Part shown: in pieces, positions 13,046-43,871 of the stretch
Position numbering within the stretch: the first letter of the stretch is position 1
Layout: each line of letters opens with the position of its first letter
Source of the DNA: Mycolicibacterium phlei
Lineage (GTDB): Bacteria > Actinomycetota > Actinomycetes > Mycobacteriales > Mycobacteriaceae
Reading direction: 5' to 3'
NCBI RefSeq assembly: GCF_001583415.1
Contig: NZ_CP014475.1
Location: 806,001-870,000, forward strand
DNA length: 64,000 bases
Translations under genes and position numbers: made by a program
Notes under the pieces: generated by a model
Databases searched by the model: none
The model's input: the letters and a program-made list of their open reading frames with translations, nothing else
Told to the model about the DNA's origin: nothing

Positions 13046-14556
13046 GTCCGCTCCTCGCTCCCGCGGCGCGTCAGCTCCGCTCTGATCCGATGCTTCAACA
13101 CTTTTCCGGCGTCGTTCTTGGGCAACGCATCCCACACCACGACCTGCTCGGGCGCCTTGAACTTCGCCACCCCTTGCGCCGCCAGCATCTCCCGCATGGC
13201 CGCTACGTCCGGCGGCGGCTCGGGGCCGGGGACGACGACGGCGCACGCCCGCTCCCCGGTGCGCTCGTCGGGCACCCCGACGATCGCGATCTCGGCGATC
13301 CCGGGATGGCCGATCAGGATGTCCTCGATCTCCTTGGGCGAGATGTTCTCCCCGTTGCGGATGATGATGTCCTTCGCGCGGCCGGTGACGACGAGGTAAC
13401 CGTCGTCGACCCAGCGGCCGAGATCACCGGTGTGGAAGTACCCGTCGTCGTCGAACGCCGCCGTCTCGTCCTCAGCGTGCAGATACCCGAGCAGCATCTG
13501 CGGCCCGCGCGCGCAGATCTCCCCGTCGATCAGCTTGACGTCCGCGATGCCCGGCCTGCCGTCGGTGTCGGCGGCGTGGTCGACGTCGCCCAGCGCGCCG
13601 ACCGTCGTCACCGGAACCTCGGTGGACCCGTACACCCGCGACACCGCGGCCGACTCGAAATACTCGGTGGCACTGCGGATCAGCGACGGCGGCACCGACG
13701 CTCCGCCGCAGATGAACACCTTGAGGTCCGGCAACCTGGTGCCCGCCCGCTGCGCCGCGTCCAGCAGACCGGTGAGAAACGGTGTGGCCCCGGCCATGTG
13801 GGTGACCCGCTCGGCGAGCATCAGCTGCACCGCGGTATCGGGATCCCAGCGCTGCATCAGCACCGCGGTGCTGCCCAGCAGCAGCGGGCACTCGAACGCG
13901 TAGATCGACCCGCCGATGTGCGCGATCGGCGACGGCACCAGGAACGTGTCCCCGGGTGCGACGCGCCAGTGCTCACCGATCTGGCCGATCAGTGCGTGGA
14001 TCGTGTTGTGGGTGTGCAGAACGCCTTTCGCCCGCCCGGTGGTGCCCGACGTGTACATGATCATCCGCACGTCGTCGGCATCGAGGTCCGGCAGCGCTGC
14101 CTGCGCAGTGCCGGACAGGGATCCCCACGGGGTGTGCGGACCGGCGTCGCCGCGCACCACCACGACCTCCGGCGGCGACGTCAGCGCCCCGCACACCCGC
14201 GACAGCATCGCCGCGTAGTCGTGGTCGTTGAACTCCGCCGGGATGAACACCGCCCGGCAGTCGGCGTCGTCGAGGATGAACGTCAGCTCGTGGTCGCGCA
14301 GCGACGGCAGGATCGGGTTGACCGCCATCCCGGCCAGCGTCGCCCCGAGGTAGATGATCGCCGCCTCATGCCAGTTCGGCAGCATGAACGACACCACGCT
14401 GCCGGTCGGCATCCGGGCCAGCAGCGCCTGCGCCAGCCCGGTGGCCCGCTCCAGCAGCGCCGCGCAGGTGAGCCGGACGTCCCCGTCCACTACCAGAACC
14501 CGGTCCGGCGTCGACTCCGCGGCCTCGCGCAGTGCGTCAGCCAGTGTCGGGTGCAT
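13042..14556 (-). CDS. Acyl-CoA synthetase (AMP-binding, FadD/cyclohexanecarboxylate-CoA ligase type) 2
   Basis: A 504-residue adenylate-forming ligase. It shows MYTSGTTGRAKGV, TGDLGRWVDDGYLVVTGRAKD, the IIRNGENISPKEIE hinge and a C-terminal NDAGKVLKHRI with the catalytic lysine. The pattern resembles ligases annotated as cyclohexanecarboxylate-CoA or medium-chain acyl-CoA ligases, though specificity cannot be read. It starts 3 bases after the GntR gene and overlaps the SDR gene, in one leftward operon. Two ligases in one operon suggest that two different acids, or two steps, need CoA activation. Confidence 0.85.
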   Translation of the reverse strand: MHPTLADALREAAESTPDRVLVVDGDVRLTCAALLERATGLAQALLARMPTGSVVSFMLPNWHEAAIIYLGATLAGMAVNPILPSLRDHELTFILDDADCRAVFIPAEFNDHDYAAMLSRVCGALTSPPEVVVVRGDAGPHTPWGSLSGTAQAALPDLDADDVRMIMYTSGTTGRAKGVLHTHNTIHALIGQIGEHWRVAPGDTFLVPSPIAHIGGSIYAFECPLLLGSTAVLMQRWDPDTAVQLMLAERVTHMAGATPFLTGLLDAAQRAGTRLPDLKVFICGGASVPPSLIRSATEYFESAAVSRVYGSTEVPVTTVGALGDVDHAADTDGRPGIADVKLIDGEICARGPQMLLGYLHAEDETAAFDDDGYFHTGDLGRWVDDGYLVVTGRAKDIIIRNGENISPKEIEDILIGHPGIAEIAIVGVPDERTGERACAVVVPGPEPPPDVAAMREMLAAQGVAKFKAPEQVVVWDALPKNDAGKVLKHRIRAELTRRGSEERT

Positions 14557-39230: not shown

Positions 39231-39488
39231 TCAGCGGGTCGGGTCGGCGCAGCCGACGGTGCCGAGCAGGTCGTCGACCGAGACGCCCTGCCGGGCCGCG
39301 TCGGCCACGGCCTGGGCGACGCACATCCCGTACCGCGTCTGCGCGGAGTTGTGGTCGACGACGAACCAGACCCCGAACACGCCGATCAGCGCGGTGATCA
39401 CACCGAGCACGATGCGGTCGCGCGGGGAGAGGACGTCGTCGAAGAACTCGACGATCGCCGGTCGAGCACCCACCATCTGGTTCGCCAT
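39231..39488 (-). CDS. Small single-pass membrane protein
   Basis: An 85-residue protein from ATG 39488; an upstream in-frame ATG would add 14 residues. One membrane helix spans about residues 26-46 (IVLGVITALIGVFGVWFVV). The C-terminal part after the helix contains two cysteines (YGMCVAQ and TVGCADPTR) and ends in the word-like VSVDDLLGTVGC. A G-rich stretch precedes the start. No family is recognised. It stands alone between the thiolase operon and the truncated esterase gene. Confidence 0.6.
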   Translation of the reverse strand: MANQMVGARPAIVEFFDDVLSPRDRIVLGVITALIGVFGVWFVVDHNSAQTRYGMCVAQAVADAARQGVSVDDLLGTVGCADPTR

Positions 39489-39568
39489 GGAACCCACCCC
39501 CCAAGGCAAGTTGTGTGCTGGTTCCATGCTGCGCCGAAACCACCGTCGATGACGGGAAACGGCCGAAA

Positions 39569-39855
39569 TCAGTCCGGCAGCAGGCCGAGTTGGCGGTAGA
39601 TGTCGCGGCGGACCAGCGGCGCGGCGGAGTTGATCGGCAGGCCCGAGACCGGCCAGTTGTGGAACTGGCCGCGGCCGATCACCACCGAGATCGGCGAGCC
39701 GACGTCGACCGCCCGCTCGTACAGTCGCAGGGTGGCGGGCAGGAGGATCTCCTCGCTGCCGACGTAGATCGTGGTCGGTGGCAGCGCCTGCAGCACCTCG
39801 GTCTCCATCCGCAACGGGCTGATCCGCGGGTCCTTGTCGACGACGCCGTCGAAGA
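39569..39855 (-). pseudogene. C-terminal remnant of an alpha/beta-hydrolase (esterase/lipase) gene
   Basis: About 90 codons remain, ending in the natural C-terminus RRDIYRQLGLLPD. The frame reads DKDPRISPL, LPPTTIYVGSEEILLPATLRLYERA and VVIGRGQFHNWPV, where the last His is the expected catalytic histidine. The HGGG oxyanion motif and GxSxG nucleophile, which lie in the missing two thirds, are absent. Homology stops near 39840-39860, where terminase-like sequence begins on the other strand. The gene was evidently cut by insertion or deletion linked to the phage-derived DNA. Confidence 0.7.
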
Positions 39856-39861
39856 TGTGGC

Positions 39862-40836
39862 ACTCTCGCGACGCGGCTGCATCCCGGTGGCAGCGTGCTG
39901 CTCGTCATGACGAGATGGGCCGAAACCGACTTGGCCGGTTATCTTCTCGACAGCGAGCCCGAAGTCTGGCGGCACACCAACATTCCCGCAGTAGCCGAGG
40001 CCGGCATCCCCGATGCGTTGGACCGCAGACCGGGTGTGGTGATGACCAGCGCGCTCGGCTACACCGCCGATCACTTCGCAGCTGCGCGGCGCACATCGGG
40101 CGAGCGCGCATGGTTCGCGCTCTACGAAGGTGTGCCCACCGCGCCCGAGGGCGGGCTGATCAAACGCGAATGGCTCGACAACTGGCGTCTGCCCGCTGCG
40201 CCGAGCGCGCCGAGCATGACCGTCGTCGGCGTCGATCCCAGCGACAGCGGCAGCGGTGACAGCTGCGGCATCGTCGCCGCGTCGCTCACCCGAGACGGCG
40301 TCGTCGCCGTGATCGCCGACGTCAGCGCGCCGATGACGAGCGATCAGTGGGCGCGCGCAGCTGTCGAGCTGGCAGTCGATGTCGGCGCATCGGAGATCGC
40401 CGTGGAGAGCTTCGCGGCGCGCGAGACGTATCAGCGTGTCGTCAAAGACGCTATGCGCCGCTACAAGCTCACTCACCCGGTGCGCGTCACTGCGTGGCCG
40501 CCGAAGGGCAGCGGTCGCGGCGGCGGTGACGCAATCGCGCGCAGCTCTGCGCTGCTGCAAGGGCTTGAGACGGGCACGACGCGCATGGCGGGGCATCTGC
40601 CCGAGCTTGAGCGGGCTGCGGTGCAATGGCAGCAAGGCCAGCATCAGCCCGACGCGCTCGCTGCGCTCGTCGTCGCACACGACGTCTTGAGTCATTCCCT
40701 CGGGCAGCAGTGGCACATCGTCAGCCCGCTCGACGTCGAGCGGCGAATCCGCGCAGGCGCGAACGTGGCTCGCCCTTTTGCGCCGAGCCCGCTCAGCCCC
40801 AACTCACCGCTGAGACGGCGCATCAACGGGCTGTAA
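39862..40836 (+). pseudogene. Phage terminase large subunit, C-terminal (nuclease) part
   Basis: Terminase-like sequence is visible from about TLATRLHPGGS; the first plausible start codon is GTG 39895 (VLLVMTRWAETDLAGYLL). That TRW-x2-xDLAG region is the end of the ATPase domain, and VGVDPSDSGSGDSCGIV starts the RNase-H-like nuclease domain with its acidic metal ligand. The Walker A and B motifs of the packaging ATPase are missing. About 320 of the usual 500-600 residues remain, ending in a natural C-terminus. No portal, capsid or integrase gene is nearby, so this is a prophage relic. It may still be expressed from 39895. Confidence 0.78.
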
Positions 40837-40994: not shown

Positions 40995-41789
40995 ATGACG
41001 AAGGCTGACGGTGAAACACGATTTTTGACCTGGAACATCCAGAGCGGAGGCGGCAGTCGGGTGCCGCAAATGATGCGAGAAGTGGACCTCTTGGCCCCCG
41101 AGATTCTCGCTTTCACCGAAGTGAAATCTAGTAATCTTGCGATGCTGACAAACGCTCTAGAAGCGAGTGGATTCGACCACATCGAAACGCCGTGCCCCGA
41201 GAAAGAAGTGAATAGTGTTCTGCTGGCATCGAAAATCCCCTTCGATGCCGTGAAAGAAGAGATAACGCACGACCAAGAGCGGTGGGCGTCCGTCTATATT
41301 CCAAGCCTCGATTTGCGCGTGTTATGTGTCCATATTCCGGGAGCACCGGATCACAAGTTCGACTCCGAGGGCCGCGGTATGTCTGGCCAGAAGCGTAAAG
41401 AACTGCTGTGGTACGAGGTCACACGATATGCCACGGCCCATAAGGACGAAAAGGTCGTGATTATGGGTGATCTCAACACGGGGCTGAATGAGATCGACAA
41501 GACTCCAAAGGGCACCCCGTTCAAGCTCTCAGAAAACATCCGCATATTGCGTATGGACGGCAAGTATATTGACACCTGGCGTCATCTGAACCCTAAGGCC
41601 AGAGATTACACATGGTTCACGACGCGCGATGGTAGAGACTTCAACGGTTTTCGCCTTGACTATATTTGGGTTTCATCTCCATTGCGGGAAAGCATCAGAA
41701 GCGCGCAGCACATTCACCATGTTCGTGGCAAGGTCTCCGACGGGAAGTTATCCGATCACGCGATAGTGGTCGCTGATCTAGCCCTATAA
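40995..41789 (+). CDS. Endonuclease/exonuclease/phosphatase (EEP) family nuclease
   Basis: A 264-residue protein with all EEP motifs in order: LTWNIQSG, the metal-binding Glu in AFTEVKSS, GDLNTG, FRLDYIWVS and the C-terminal LSDHAIV. This is the AP-endonuclease/DNase I fold. ATG 40995 has GGGGGAG upstream; an in-frame ATG at 40968 is possible. The DNA is visibly poorer in G+C than its surroundings (two lines counted by hand gave 43 and 53 percent) with AT-ending codons, a sign of recent transfer. Its neighbours (Mrr-type and OGG-fold) suggest DNA restriction or repair. Confidence 0.85.
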   Translation: MTKADGETRFLTWNIQSGGGSRVPQMMREVDLLAPEILAFTEVKSSNLAMLTNALEASGFDHIETPCPEKEVNSVLLASKIPFDAVKEEITHDQERWASVYIPSLDLRVLCVHIPGAPDHKFDSEGRGMSGQKRKELLWYEVTRYATAHKDEKVVIMGDLNTGLNEIDKTPKGTPFKLSENIRILRMDGKYIDTWRHLNPKARDYTWFTTRDGRDFNGFRLDYIWVSSPLRESIRSAQHIHHVRGKVSDGKLSDHAIVVADLAL

Positions 41790-41810
41790 ACCGGAAGTTG
41801 TGCGGGCAAC

Positions 41811-42734
41811 CTACAGCGTGTCGAAGAAGTCCTCGTCCAGCCGGTAGAGAGTCACCGACTGCTCCGGCTGAACGCCGATGCCATACTGCACCAACAGCTC
41901 GGCCAGCCGTGCGCCGTCTATAAGTTCAATGCGGGCGTTGATCCGCTCGGCCTCTTCGCGGGCACCTTTCGTGAACCGCGATGTTGTGATGAACACCCCG
42001 CGGTCGCCCTGCTTGGAAAGCAAGGCCCCAGCGAAGCCGTGAATTTGTGGTCTATCGACCGGTGTGTCGGTGTACCGCTTGGCCTGAATGTAGATGCGGT
42101 CTAGCCCGAGCGGGTCCTGGCTGATGATGCCGTCGATGCCGCCATCACCGGATGGGGCGGTTCGGTGAGCTGACCCGCGCGCACGCCCGTAACCCATGCG
42201 ATCGAGCAGCCGAACGACCAGTTCCTCGAAGCCGGTCGGCGACAGTTTGAGCGCAGCGGCCAATACTTCGCTTTCCACTGCTGCCCGGTTGATCCGCTCC
42301 GCGCGCTCGGCTAGATCGTTGGGCGTACTTGAGTCTTCCTCGGAGATCGACGGCTTCTCGGTTCCTTGGCCGTCGTCGGCGGGACGGTCTCGCTTGCGGT
42401 CACGGAACTCTAGATACGCCGGATACGCCTCCAGAGCCTTCATGTCGATCCGCTCGGGGTACTTGTCGAGCGCGGCGCGGCCCTCGTCGGAGATCGTCAC
42501 CAGCCCGCGTCCAGGCCGCTCGATGAGTCCCGCCTGACTTAGATAGGACATCGCCCATCCGCCCCGGTTGTCGATCCGCTTTTGTCCGCTCGGCACTTTC
42601 TCGGCCCGCTCTTCGGGGGTAAGGCCGAACTGGTCGGCCATCGCCTCGATGACATCCCGCGAACGATGAACCTCGCCGTCGGCTAGGTGGGCAAGTACCG
42701 GACGCATCAGCGTCTGGAAGTCGGGGATCGTCAC
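41811..42734 (-). CDS. Mrr-type restriction endonuclease
   Basis: A 307-residue protein with GTG start behind GGGAGG. Residues 1-90 form the Mrr N-terminal winged helix (PDFQTLMRPVLAHLADG ... GWAMSYLSQAGLIERPGRG). Residues 170-290 form the Mrr catalytic domain: GFEELVVRLLDRMGY, then D201 in GGIDGI and Q217-A-K219 in IYIQAKRY, the D-(Q/E)-x-K nuclease site. Mrr enzymes are type IV systems that cut modified DNA. No methyltransferase is adjacent, which fits that role. The gene converges on the EEP gene and is divergent from the OGG-fold gene. Confidence 0.88.
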   Translation of the reverse strand: MTIPDFQTLMRPVLAHLADGEVHRSRDVIEAMADQFGLTPEERAEKVPSGQKRIDNRGGWAMSYLSQAGLIERPGRGLVTISDEGRAALDKYPERIDMKALEAYPAYLEFRDRKRDRPADDGQGTEKPSISEEDSSTPNDLAERAERINRAAVESEVLAAALKLSPTGFEELVVRLLDRMGYGRARGSAHRTAPSGDGGIDGIISQDPLGLDRIYIQAKRYTDTPVDRPQIHGFAGALLSKQGDRGVFITTSRFTKGAREEAERINARIELIDGARLAELLVQYGIGVQPEQSVTLYRLDEDFFDTL

Positions 42735-42820
42735 ACAACTTCCTCCCGCTCTGATGGACGCTGATTGCTCCCGTTCGCGTCGGTCCGAACAACTTCGTAA
42801 TGAACTCGACGGTGTCGGGG

Positions 42821-42847
42821 TGTCAGCCAAACACAATGTCACTGACA
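42821..42847. repeat. Inverted repeat in the Mrr / OGG-fold divergent region
   Basis: TGTCAG (42821-42826) and CTGACA (42842-42847) are perfect 6-base arms 15 bases apart. They lie in the 223-base region shared by the two divergent genes, where a shared regulator could act. Nothing else distinctive is seen in this gap. Confidence 0.25.
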
Positions 42848-42957
42848 AATACCATTTATCGCCTCCTGAATCACAAGCAGTGCTCGGGTCTATGACTTCG
42901 CGACCCGTCTGAATGACCGGGTGCTGAGCGTCGGTGCGATCCTGCATACTCTCGCCC

Positions 42958-43617
42958 ATGACAGACGCGGGGGAAGAACTGGCGTACGACAACTGGGCGA
43001 AGTATCGGTCGGCATGGTGGACGCGATACTTCACTGGCGAGCTGGCGCACTTCTGGCCGCCGCAGCTCGATCAGTCCGAACCCGATGCACGCGGCTATCG
43101 CTGGCTTTCCCGCAGCGGCGTGTTCGACATCGCGGCCACCGAGTCCGAGCACCGCGAGCTGCACACGGCAGTCGCCGCCTACGTGTGGGGCGTCGGTTTC
43201 ACCGCTCGCATGTCGATAGGCCGCCTGGTCCGCGCCTTCACGGCCAACGCCGACACCGTGGAGGACAACTTGCGCCGCGCTGCTGCGGTCCTCGCTGATG
43301 ATGGCCCGGTCGCGGCTTACGAGTCGTTATTGGCGGGCGGCCCGAATCAGACGAAGTTCATGGGACCGGCCTACTTCACCAAGTTCCTGTTCTTCTCGGG
43401 CTACCGCGACCCGGATGCCGAGCTGCGACCGCTGATCCTCGACAGGCGGGTGGCTATCGCATTGCGTGAGCGCGGCGTGTTCGGACCGAAGGCAGGTAAC
43501 GCCGACTGGCCCAGCGAGCTTTACCGCCGGTATCTCATCTTCTGCCACGAACAGAACCCGACCGACCCTGCGGCAGTCGAGGCCGAGCTGTTCAACGCGG
43601 GTCGCGCTCCCGGTTGA
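42958..43617 (+). CDS. OGG-fold (8-oxoguanine DNA glycosylase-like) protein
   Basis: A 219-residue protein resembling the actinobacterial group annotated as 8-oxoguanine DNA glycosylase OGG-fold proteins. The helix MGPAYFTKFLFFSGY carries a lysine where HhH-GPD glycosylases hold the catalytic one, and LILDRRVAIAL carries the candidate catalytic Asp. The N-terminal half (DNWAKYRSAWW, FDIAATESEHREL) is not recognised. TACTCT lies 5 bases before the ATG, so a leaderless transcript is likely. Its place beside Mrr and EEP nucleases suggests action on damaged or modified DNA, but activity is unproven. Confidence 0.62.
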   Translation: MTDAGEELAYDNWAKYRSAWWTRYFTGELAHFWPPQLDQSEPDARGYRWLSRSGVFDIAATESEHRELHTAVAAYVWGVGFTARMSIGRLVRAFTANADTVEDNLRRAAAVLADDGPVAAYESLLAGGPNQTKFMGPAYFTKFLFFSGYRDPDAELRPLILDRRVAIALRERGVFGPKAGNADWPSELYRRYLIFCHEQNPTDPAAVEAELFNAGRAPG

Positions 43618-43774
43618 CGGGCGGCTGCACCGCTACGGGGCGCAGCAATTCGCGGAGACGGGCACGCTGCTCGGGCGTGAGCGGAGGGGCGGCGTCGACG
43701 ATCTTCTTGATGTACTCGCGATGGTCGTCTGACGGCACCGTGGACCCCTTTATCGCCCGGAAATTGCCCGTCAT
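43592..43774 (-). CDS. Small conserved-type protein next to tRNA-Arg
   Basis: A 60-residue protein from ATG 43774 (an in-frame ATG at 43786 is possible). The pattern HREYIKKIVDAAPPLTPEQRARLRELL is one I associate with small proteins in actinobacterial genomic islands near integration sites. It overlaps the 3' end of the OGG-fold gene by 26 bases, convergent. No function can be proposed. Confidence 0.45.
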   Translation of the reverse strand: MTGNFRAIKGSTVPSDDHREYIKKIVDAAPPLTPEQRARLRELLRPVAVQPPVNRERDPR

Positions 43775-43795: not shown

Positions 43796-43871
43796 TGGTG
43801 CCCCCGGCAGGATTCGAACCTGCGACACCGGCTTTAGGAGAGCCGTGCTCTATCCCCTGAGCTACGAGGGC
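43796..43871 (-). tRNA. tRNA-Arg (anticodon CCT)
   Basis: On the minus strand GCCCTCG and CGGGGGC form the acceptor stem (with G-T and G-G-type irregularity only at the fifth and sixth pairs), GCTC-AGGGGATA-GAGC the D arm, CGGCT-CTCCTAA-AGCCG the anticodon arm with anticodon CCT, and GCAGG-TTCGAAT-CCTGC the T arm. A73 is followed by an encoded CCA. Its 3' end faces the foreign island at 39862-43795, the usual orientation for integration into a tRNA 3' end, but I found no repeat of the tRNA 3' end at the island's left border. Confidence 0.95.

Follow-up and report, generated by a model that had tools for sequence, protein, structure and literature searches.

Three genes for DNA-acting proteins, encoding an EEP nuclease, an Mrr endonuclease and an OGG-fold glycosylase, lie side by side next to a tRNA-Arg gene in a 64,000-nucleotide stretch of Mycolicibacterium phlei DNA (contig NZ_CP014475.1, positions 806,001 to 870,000; hereafter the window), and the question they raise is whether they work together as one anti-phage module, as a sequence-only reading had suggested. 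The analysis reported here points elsewhere. What remains at the locus is most probably the right-hand part of an integrative element resembling a satellite, with three independently acquired DNA-targeting enzymes as its cargo. These probably act against phages each on its own, and not as components of a joint machinery.

All three genes are present as that reading had stated, as open reading frames open over their full length and with family matches far beyond chance, and they fill the interval between a fragment of a large terminase (TerL) and tRNA-Arg(CCT) (Table 1). The adjoining tRNA is likewise confirmed, and what had been called phage debris is the C-terminal part of the terminase, the sole phrog_38 match in the whole genome. 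The small ORF converging on the OGG gene has homologues of 49 amino acids at L192:8635-8781 and at L093:9482-9628; L085 shares this convergent region.

Table 1. Features of the locus (window coordinates), and UDG-like genes that adjoin PF21790 genes at other loci (coordinates of each locus).
Feature	Position	Strand	Evidence or remarks
TerL C-terminal fragment, carrier-element remnant	39895-40836	+	phrog_38 1e-44, profile positions 446-714 of 760
EEP nuclease, ExoIII/APE1-like, 264 aa	40995-41789	+	Pfam Exo_endo_phos 5.8e-15
Mrr-type (type IV) restriction endonuclease, 307 aa	41811-42734	-	Mrr_N, Mrr_cat, PADLOC mREase_IV
OGG-like predicted DNA glycosylase, 219 aa	42958-43617	+	PF21790 7.7e-42
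Small ORF converging on OGG gene	43592-43774	-	Same place in related elements
tRNA-Arg(CCT), attachment site	43796-43871	-	ARAGORN
att core GCCCCCGGCAGGATTCGAACCT	43800-43821	within tRNA-Arg(CCT)	These 22 bp are also the direct repeats bounding the 15.1 kb G152 element
PF21790-adjoining UDG-like genes	L082:8921-9607, L090:10499-11119, L107:8913-9431, L110:10447-11040, L072:11284-11896

The low-G+C island that had been described applies chiefly to the EEP gene, whose composition is clearly foreign (52.3% GC and a GC3 of 0.61, against window gene means of 69.7 ± 2.6% and 0.92 ± 0.04); Mrr (63.5% GC) and OGG (65.6% GC) deviate mildly. The EEP and Mrr genes are convergent, separated by 21 bases, while Mrr and OGG are divergent, so that no single operon can hold the three and the trio is not co-transcribed. 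No second copy of the att core was found in the window at up to five mismatches, nor any direct repeat of the tRNA end, which indicates that the left attachment site and the left end of the element have been lost. To the left of the TerL fragment (39231-39808) are two short ORFs of 86 and 80 amino acids, one of which resembles a hydrolase C-terminus, in the position that a GAF-domain-like gene occupies in relatives; they are perhaps the scar of the deletion that took the left part of the element.

An intact element of 15.1 kb is found in another genome (G152) at the same tRNA-Arg(CCT), bounded by 22-bp direct repeats of the tRNA end and with the window's luciferase-like gene nearby. Its genes run in the order integrase, excisionases, Prim-Pol, further genes, TerL, methylase, unknown, OGG and tRNA, and its proteins comprise a tyrosine integrase, two small excisionase-like proteins, a resolvase-like protein, a putative peptidase, a DNA methylase and one unknown protein, together with the Prim-Pol (phrog_906, 1e-136; PF09250), the TerL (phrog_38, 5e-82) and an OGG that is 89% identical to that of the window. 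Phages Dori and Mao1 and prophages of M. abscessus have TerL proteins that share 63-68% identity with this one, and among the 10 proteins scanned against PHROGs there was no match to a capsid, portal or tail protein. This element thus combines an integrase, att repeats and a replication gene with no detected head or tail genes, the gene content of a satellite, and on that basis I infer that the carrier is a satellite-like element, of which the window appears to keep only the right end. It resembles PICI-like phage satellites in its length of ~15 kb, integrase, tRNA att repeats, primase-polymerase, variable defence-like cargo and absence of detected capsid or tail genes, but differs from them in encoding a full TerL.

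Related elements of ~15 kb form a family, with members at L152/L085 (G152), L192/L205 (M. novocastrense), L081, L093 and L118; they carry an integrase and TerL, and a Prim-Pol in one, and lie at tRNA-Arg genes or beside a flavodoxin-like gene; head and tail genes were detected in none. For M. novocastrense, integrase and att are present and a PF09250 Prim-Pol was not detected by Pfam; a search for close relatives of the Prim-Pol found none in viral contigs. The cargo of the family, between terL and attR, is variable. A TerL lies less than 5 kb from OGG or Mrr at six other loci (L081, L085, L093, L118, L119 and L120), each with a different cargo, including HNH and AAA proteins at L093, DUF4238 and DUF6602 at L118 and a protein without Pfam match at L120, and a BbrUII-like restriction protein lies upstream of TerL at L081. 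The orthologous tRNA site is an insertion hot spot and varies between genomes: tRNA and thiolase are 1.6 kb apart in G039 but roughly 11 kb apart in G035, and G055 has a DUF3800 gene there.

By its modelled fold and its active-site residues, the EEP protein is predicted to be of the ExoIII/AP-endonuclease type, though it scores under the curated equivalog cut-offs (TIGR00633 xth, 2e-23 and 83.1 bits against 99.05; TIGR00195, 66.4 bits against 182.6). Its profile matches solved ExoIII at 1e-21, its model matches the folds of APE1, ExoIII and LINE-1 EN at about 1e-15, and the alignment shows no exchange at N14, E42, D159, N161 or D222, with the SDH motif kept. It shares fold and catalytic residues with ExoIII and APE1, and differs from them, besides its position below the NCBIfam cut-offs, in that its subfamily is mobile, mycobacterial and marked by a WNIQxGGG signature. 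The closest relative at the DNA level (G195) is 80% identical over the ORF and confined to it, similarity dropping just outside, and lies near another tRNA-Arg gene, with anticodon CCG. Close relatives (42% identity or more) occur in six other genomes among the 198 of the genus searched. Three EEP relatives adjoin defence genes, namely a DruE-like helicase (L113), JetC, ThsA-like and NERD-helicase genes (L114), and DrmD-like and DrmMI-like genes (L115), and these neighbours favour a defence role, short of proof; alternatively the protein could be a repair enzyme. At L113:9582-18702 the EEP relative is directly next to a 1,138-amino-acid protein and the DruE-like helicase, possibly an EEP-containing Druantia-like locus. 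Searches of viral contigs gave no match to EEP, and those of plasmids only distant xth-type genes of less than 30% identity.

The Mrr family consists of type IV restriction enzymes, and the window protein has both of its domains (Pfam Mrr_N, 4e-29, and Mrr_cat, 5.2e-37), matches the PADLOC mREase_IV model (8.3e-73) and possesses the GDGGIDG...QAKR motif; no difference from the type IV enzymes was seen. Its family membership makes it a plausible defence protein. Close relatives (60% identity or more) were found in seven other genomes of the 198, and phmmer found no match among PDB sequences. At two loci (L118:8258-10885 and L121:9257-10928), next to dapB, Mrr has a flavodoxin-like gene on either side, one copy truncated and the other complete; perhaps the element here rebuilds the gene into which it inserts.

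The OGG-like protein belongs to PF21790, the sole Pfam family matched: none of 28 members has an HhH-GPD or Ogg Pfam match, and the PF21790 profile gave chance matches only against PDB sequences. Its AlphaFold2 model (pLDDT 89, pTM 0.87) gave weak E-values of 0.3-1 with Foldseek alone, human OGG1 at the top, and on re-alignment with VIA-align the top four matches were Ogg2 structures (Z 8.1-9.0, with MjOgg at 9.0, SsOgg at 8.2 and TmOgg at 8.1), followed by other HhH glycosylases, so that Ogg2, OGG1 and EndoIII types are all represented. The model thus points to an HhH glycosylase fold. Seven residues (R52, W77, T141, K142, D162, Y189 and E208) are invariant in the 28 sequences. K142 and D162, 20 residues apart, resemble K249 and D268 of OGG1, to which I take them to correspond, by motif and not by superposed coordinates; this invariant pair in an OGG1-like motif leads to the prediction, from fold and conserved residues, of a bifunctional glycosylase/lyase. 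MjOgg, SsOgg and TmOgg share with the window protein nearly the whole-chain fold (Z 8-9 over about 160 residues) and the Lys and Asp 20 residues apart, but sequence identity is 11-15%, and the OGG-like protein is found on mobile elements.

A repair function for this cargo is the alternative that survives best, and is nonetheless rather unlikely. It would make the OGG-like and EEP proteins accessory base-excision-repair enzymes carried on mobile elements, with Mrr as the sole defence gene, and it agrees with the structural neighbours of both, archaeal and bacterial 8-oxoG glycosylase/lyases for the OGG-like fold and ExoIII and AP endonucleases for EEP. Against it stand the defence islands in which EEP relatives sit and the distribution of PF21790, which is patchy (44 of the 198 genus genomes), extends to plasmids of Gordonia, Rhodococcus and Mycolicibacterium, and has as neighbours integrases, TrwC relaxases, restriction components and UDG-like glycosylases. 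A defence role for the OGG-like protein is made plausible by its fold, scattered distribution, presence on plasmids and mobile neighbours. It had no match in named phage records, and no PADLOC model matches it or EEP.

The three genes occur together in the window only, as judged from 198 genomes of the genus, 299 of the order, and searches of genome and viral contigs. In the three genus genomes with two of the families (G034, G166 and G180) these are on different contigs, and none of the families are co-located in the 299 genomes of the order. The nearest match, found by a scan of named genomes, is Mycolicibacterium novocastrense JCM18114 (L192), whose element is also an IMG/VR record of 15,819 bases and reads TerL, DUF4145, Mrr, HTH, OGG, small ORF and tRNA-Arg(CCG). 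DNA identity to the window is 89.6% in TerL, 94.7% in Mrr and 94.5% from OGG to the tRNA, the figure for OGG being 94.5-97%, and the EEP gene of the window falls in a non-matching stretch where the DUF4145 gene sits. Since the slot holds DUF4145 there, and EEP has its best match at another locus, EEP appears to have been exchanged in independently of Mrr and OGG.

This comparison also bears on the idea that Mrr and OGG form a two-gene defence unit with EEP as an unrelated passenger, which is unlikely, and more so than a repair function. The order Mrr-(HTH)-OGG is common to both species at different tRNA genes, with the high DNA identities given above, and the M. novocastrense block is flanked by att-like copies, namely a 16-bp copy of the att core just downstream of Mrr (L205+L192, contig position 13488, C29 of G473) and attR. 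An earlier insertion, next to which another arrived afterwards in tandem, may have left this block as its right end, or the block may be an att-flanked cassette. However, the two cases reflect one shared descent and not two independent pairings, the pair is divergently transcribed, and OGG and close Mrr relatives were never adjacent beyond the window in the genus and order searches (copies in G180 and G292 are far apart or on different contigs). I considered Mrr and OGG as an independently recurring pair, and rejected this as the second case is shared descent; joint inheritance in two elements leaves room for a functional link. Absence of co-occurrence beyond this genome, which the original proposal had listed among the findings that would count against it, is thus seen for the trio, but the pair is found together in one other genome.

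A true three-gene module is very improbable. In such a module, abasic sites made by OGG in modified phage DNA would be cut by EEP, and Mrr would cover other modifications. In its favour, all three genes are undamaged neighbours that retain their active-site residues, ExoIII-type enzymes are able to work on the sites that glycosylases leave, and AP endonucleases enhance R.PabI restriction (PMC10273834); against it, the searches of genus and order gave no second instance, DUF4145 fills the EEP slot in the nearest relative, gene orientation excludes a single operon, the GC3 of EEP is strongly unlike that of Mrr and OGG, and Brig1 works without needing AP endonucleases (PMC11078745). Nor would the OGG-like protein need EEP to cut, as it keeps the invariant K142 and may nick DNA without a partner. 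Of the anti-phage interpretation, the gene identities and mobile setting stand, and the individual defence roles are supported or plausible; the joint module is not supported.

In the preferred reading of independent cargo on a satellite-like element, the element would have inserted at the 3' end of tRNA-Arg(CCT) and collected the three enzymes one by one at its cargo end, which would have been left when the rest was deleted. Judging from its family, Mrr would cleave DNA with foreign modification, as in type IV restriction. The OGG-like protein would flip out a purine carrying a modification or damage and excise it, with invading DNA as the probable target; its fold and conserved residues suggest that K142 would form a Schiff base and nick the strand by beta-elimination. 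From its family and the defence-island neighbours, EEP would be an ExoIII-like nuclease that needs Mg and attacks either phage DNA or damaged ends. Each would shield the element and its host alongside the others; chemically, OGG could pass its product on to EEP, but such a relay would not have been selected as a unit.

The closest known parallels to PF21790 are Brig1, Brig2 and Brig3 (PMC11078745, PMC13160076), which are likewise single mobile glycosylase genes near other defence genes; Brig1 is found mostly in Actinobacteria, and for all of them, as for the OGG-like protein, base excision is the proposed mode of attack. In contrast to the HhH/Ogg2-like fold of the latter, Brig1 and Brig3 are members of the uracil-DNA-glycosylase superfamily (Brig2 having been identified through its homology to Brig1), and Brig1 is mainly monofunctional, whereas the window protein, with its invariant Lys, is a predicted lyase. 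By its fold the OGG-like protein does not fit a Brig-type glycosylase: it lacks the UDG-superfamily fold, matching HhH structures and, in Pfam, PF21790 only.

In five genomes (G078, G079, G139, G043 and G034) a gene of the UDG superfamily is some 50-1,100 bases away from the PF21790 gene (Table 1); the neighbour is related to family 4, under the family cut-off. UDG-like genes occur in about 27 of the 198 genomes, and a rough estimate, taking 10 genomes with both genes, ~6 Mb each and an interval of ~2.4 kb per OGG copy, puts the number of adjacent pairs expected by chance below 0.01. Because G139 and G043 look alike, the independent cases number about four. The two genes are a possible two-glycosylase unit, and their adjacency suggests a tie between PF21790 and the superfamily of Brig1 and Brig3, not EEP or Mrr. 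In the mycobacteriophage Rosebush, about 28% of G is replaced by dPreQ0 (PMC6884629), so that a modified guanine is a conceivable, if speculative, substrate for the OGG-like protein. As a tentative proposal, less likely to be right than wrong, PF21790 could represent a second, HhH-fold and lyase-competent, class of antiviral glycosylase, mobile across the Mycobacteriales on plasmids and satellite-like elements, in some cases paired with a UDG-like glycosylase, which may attack modified phage purines such as 7-deazaguanines.

Adjacency within a cargo slot is therefore not to be equated with a system, as one near relative is enough to dissolve the trio. The locus instead brings out a family of mycobacterial elements, carrying TerL and lacking detected capsid genes, that appears to gather DNA-attacking enzymes at tRNA-Arg genes, and it singles out PF21790, a mobile and uncharacterised OGG-fold family, as a promising candidate for base excision against viruses, whose fold is unlike that of the known Brig enzymes.
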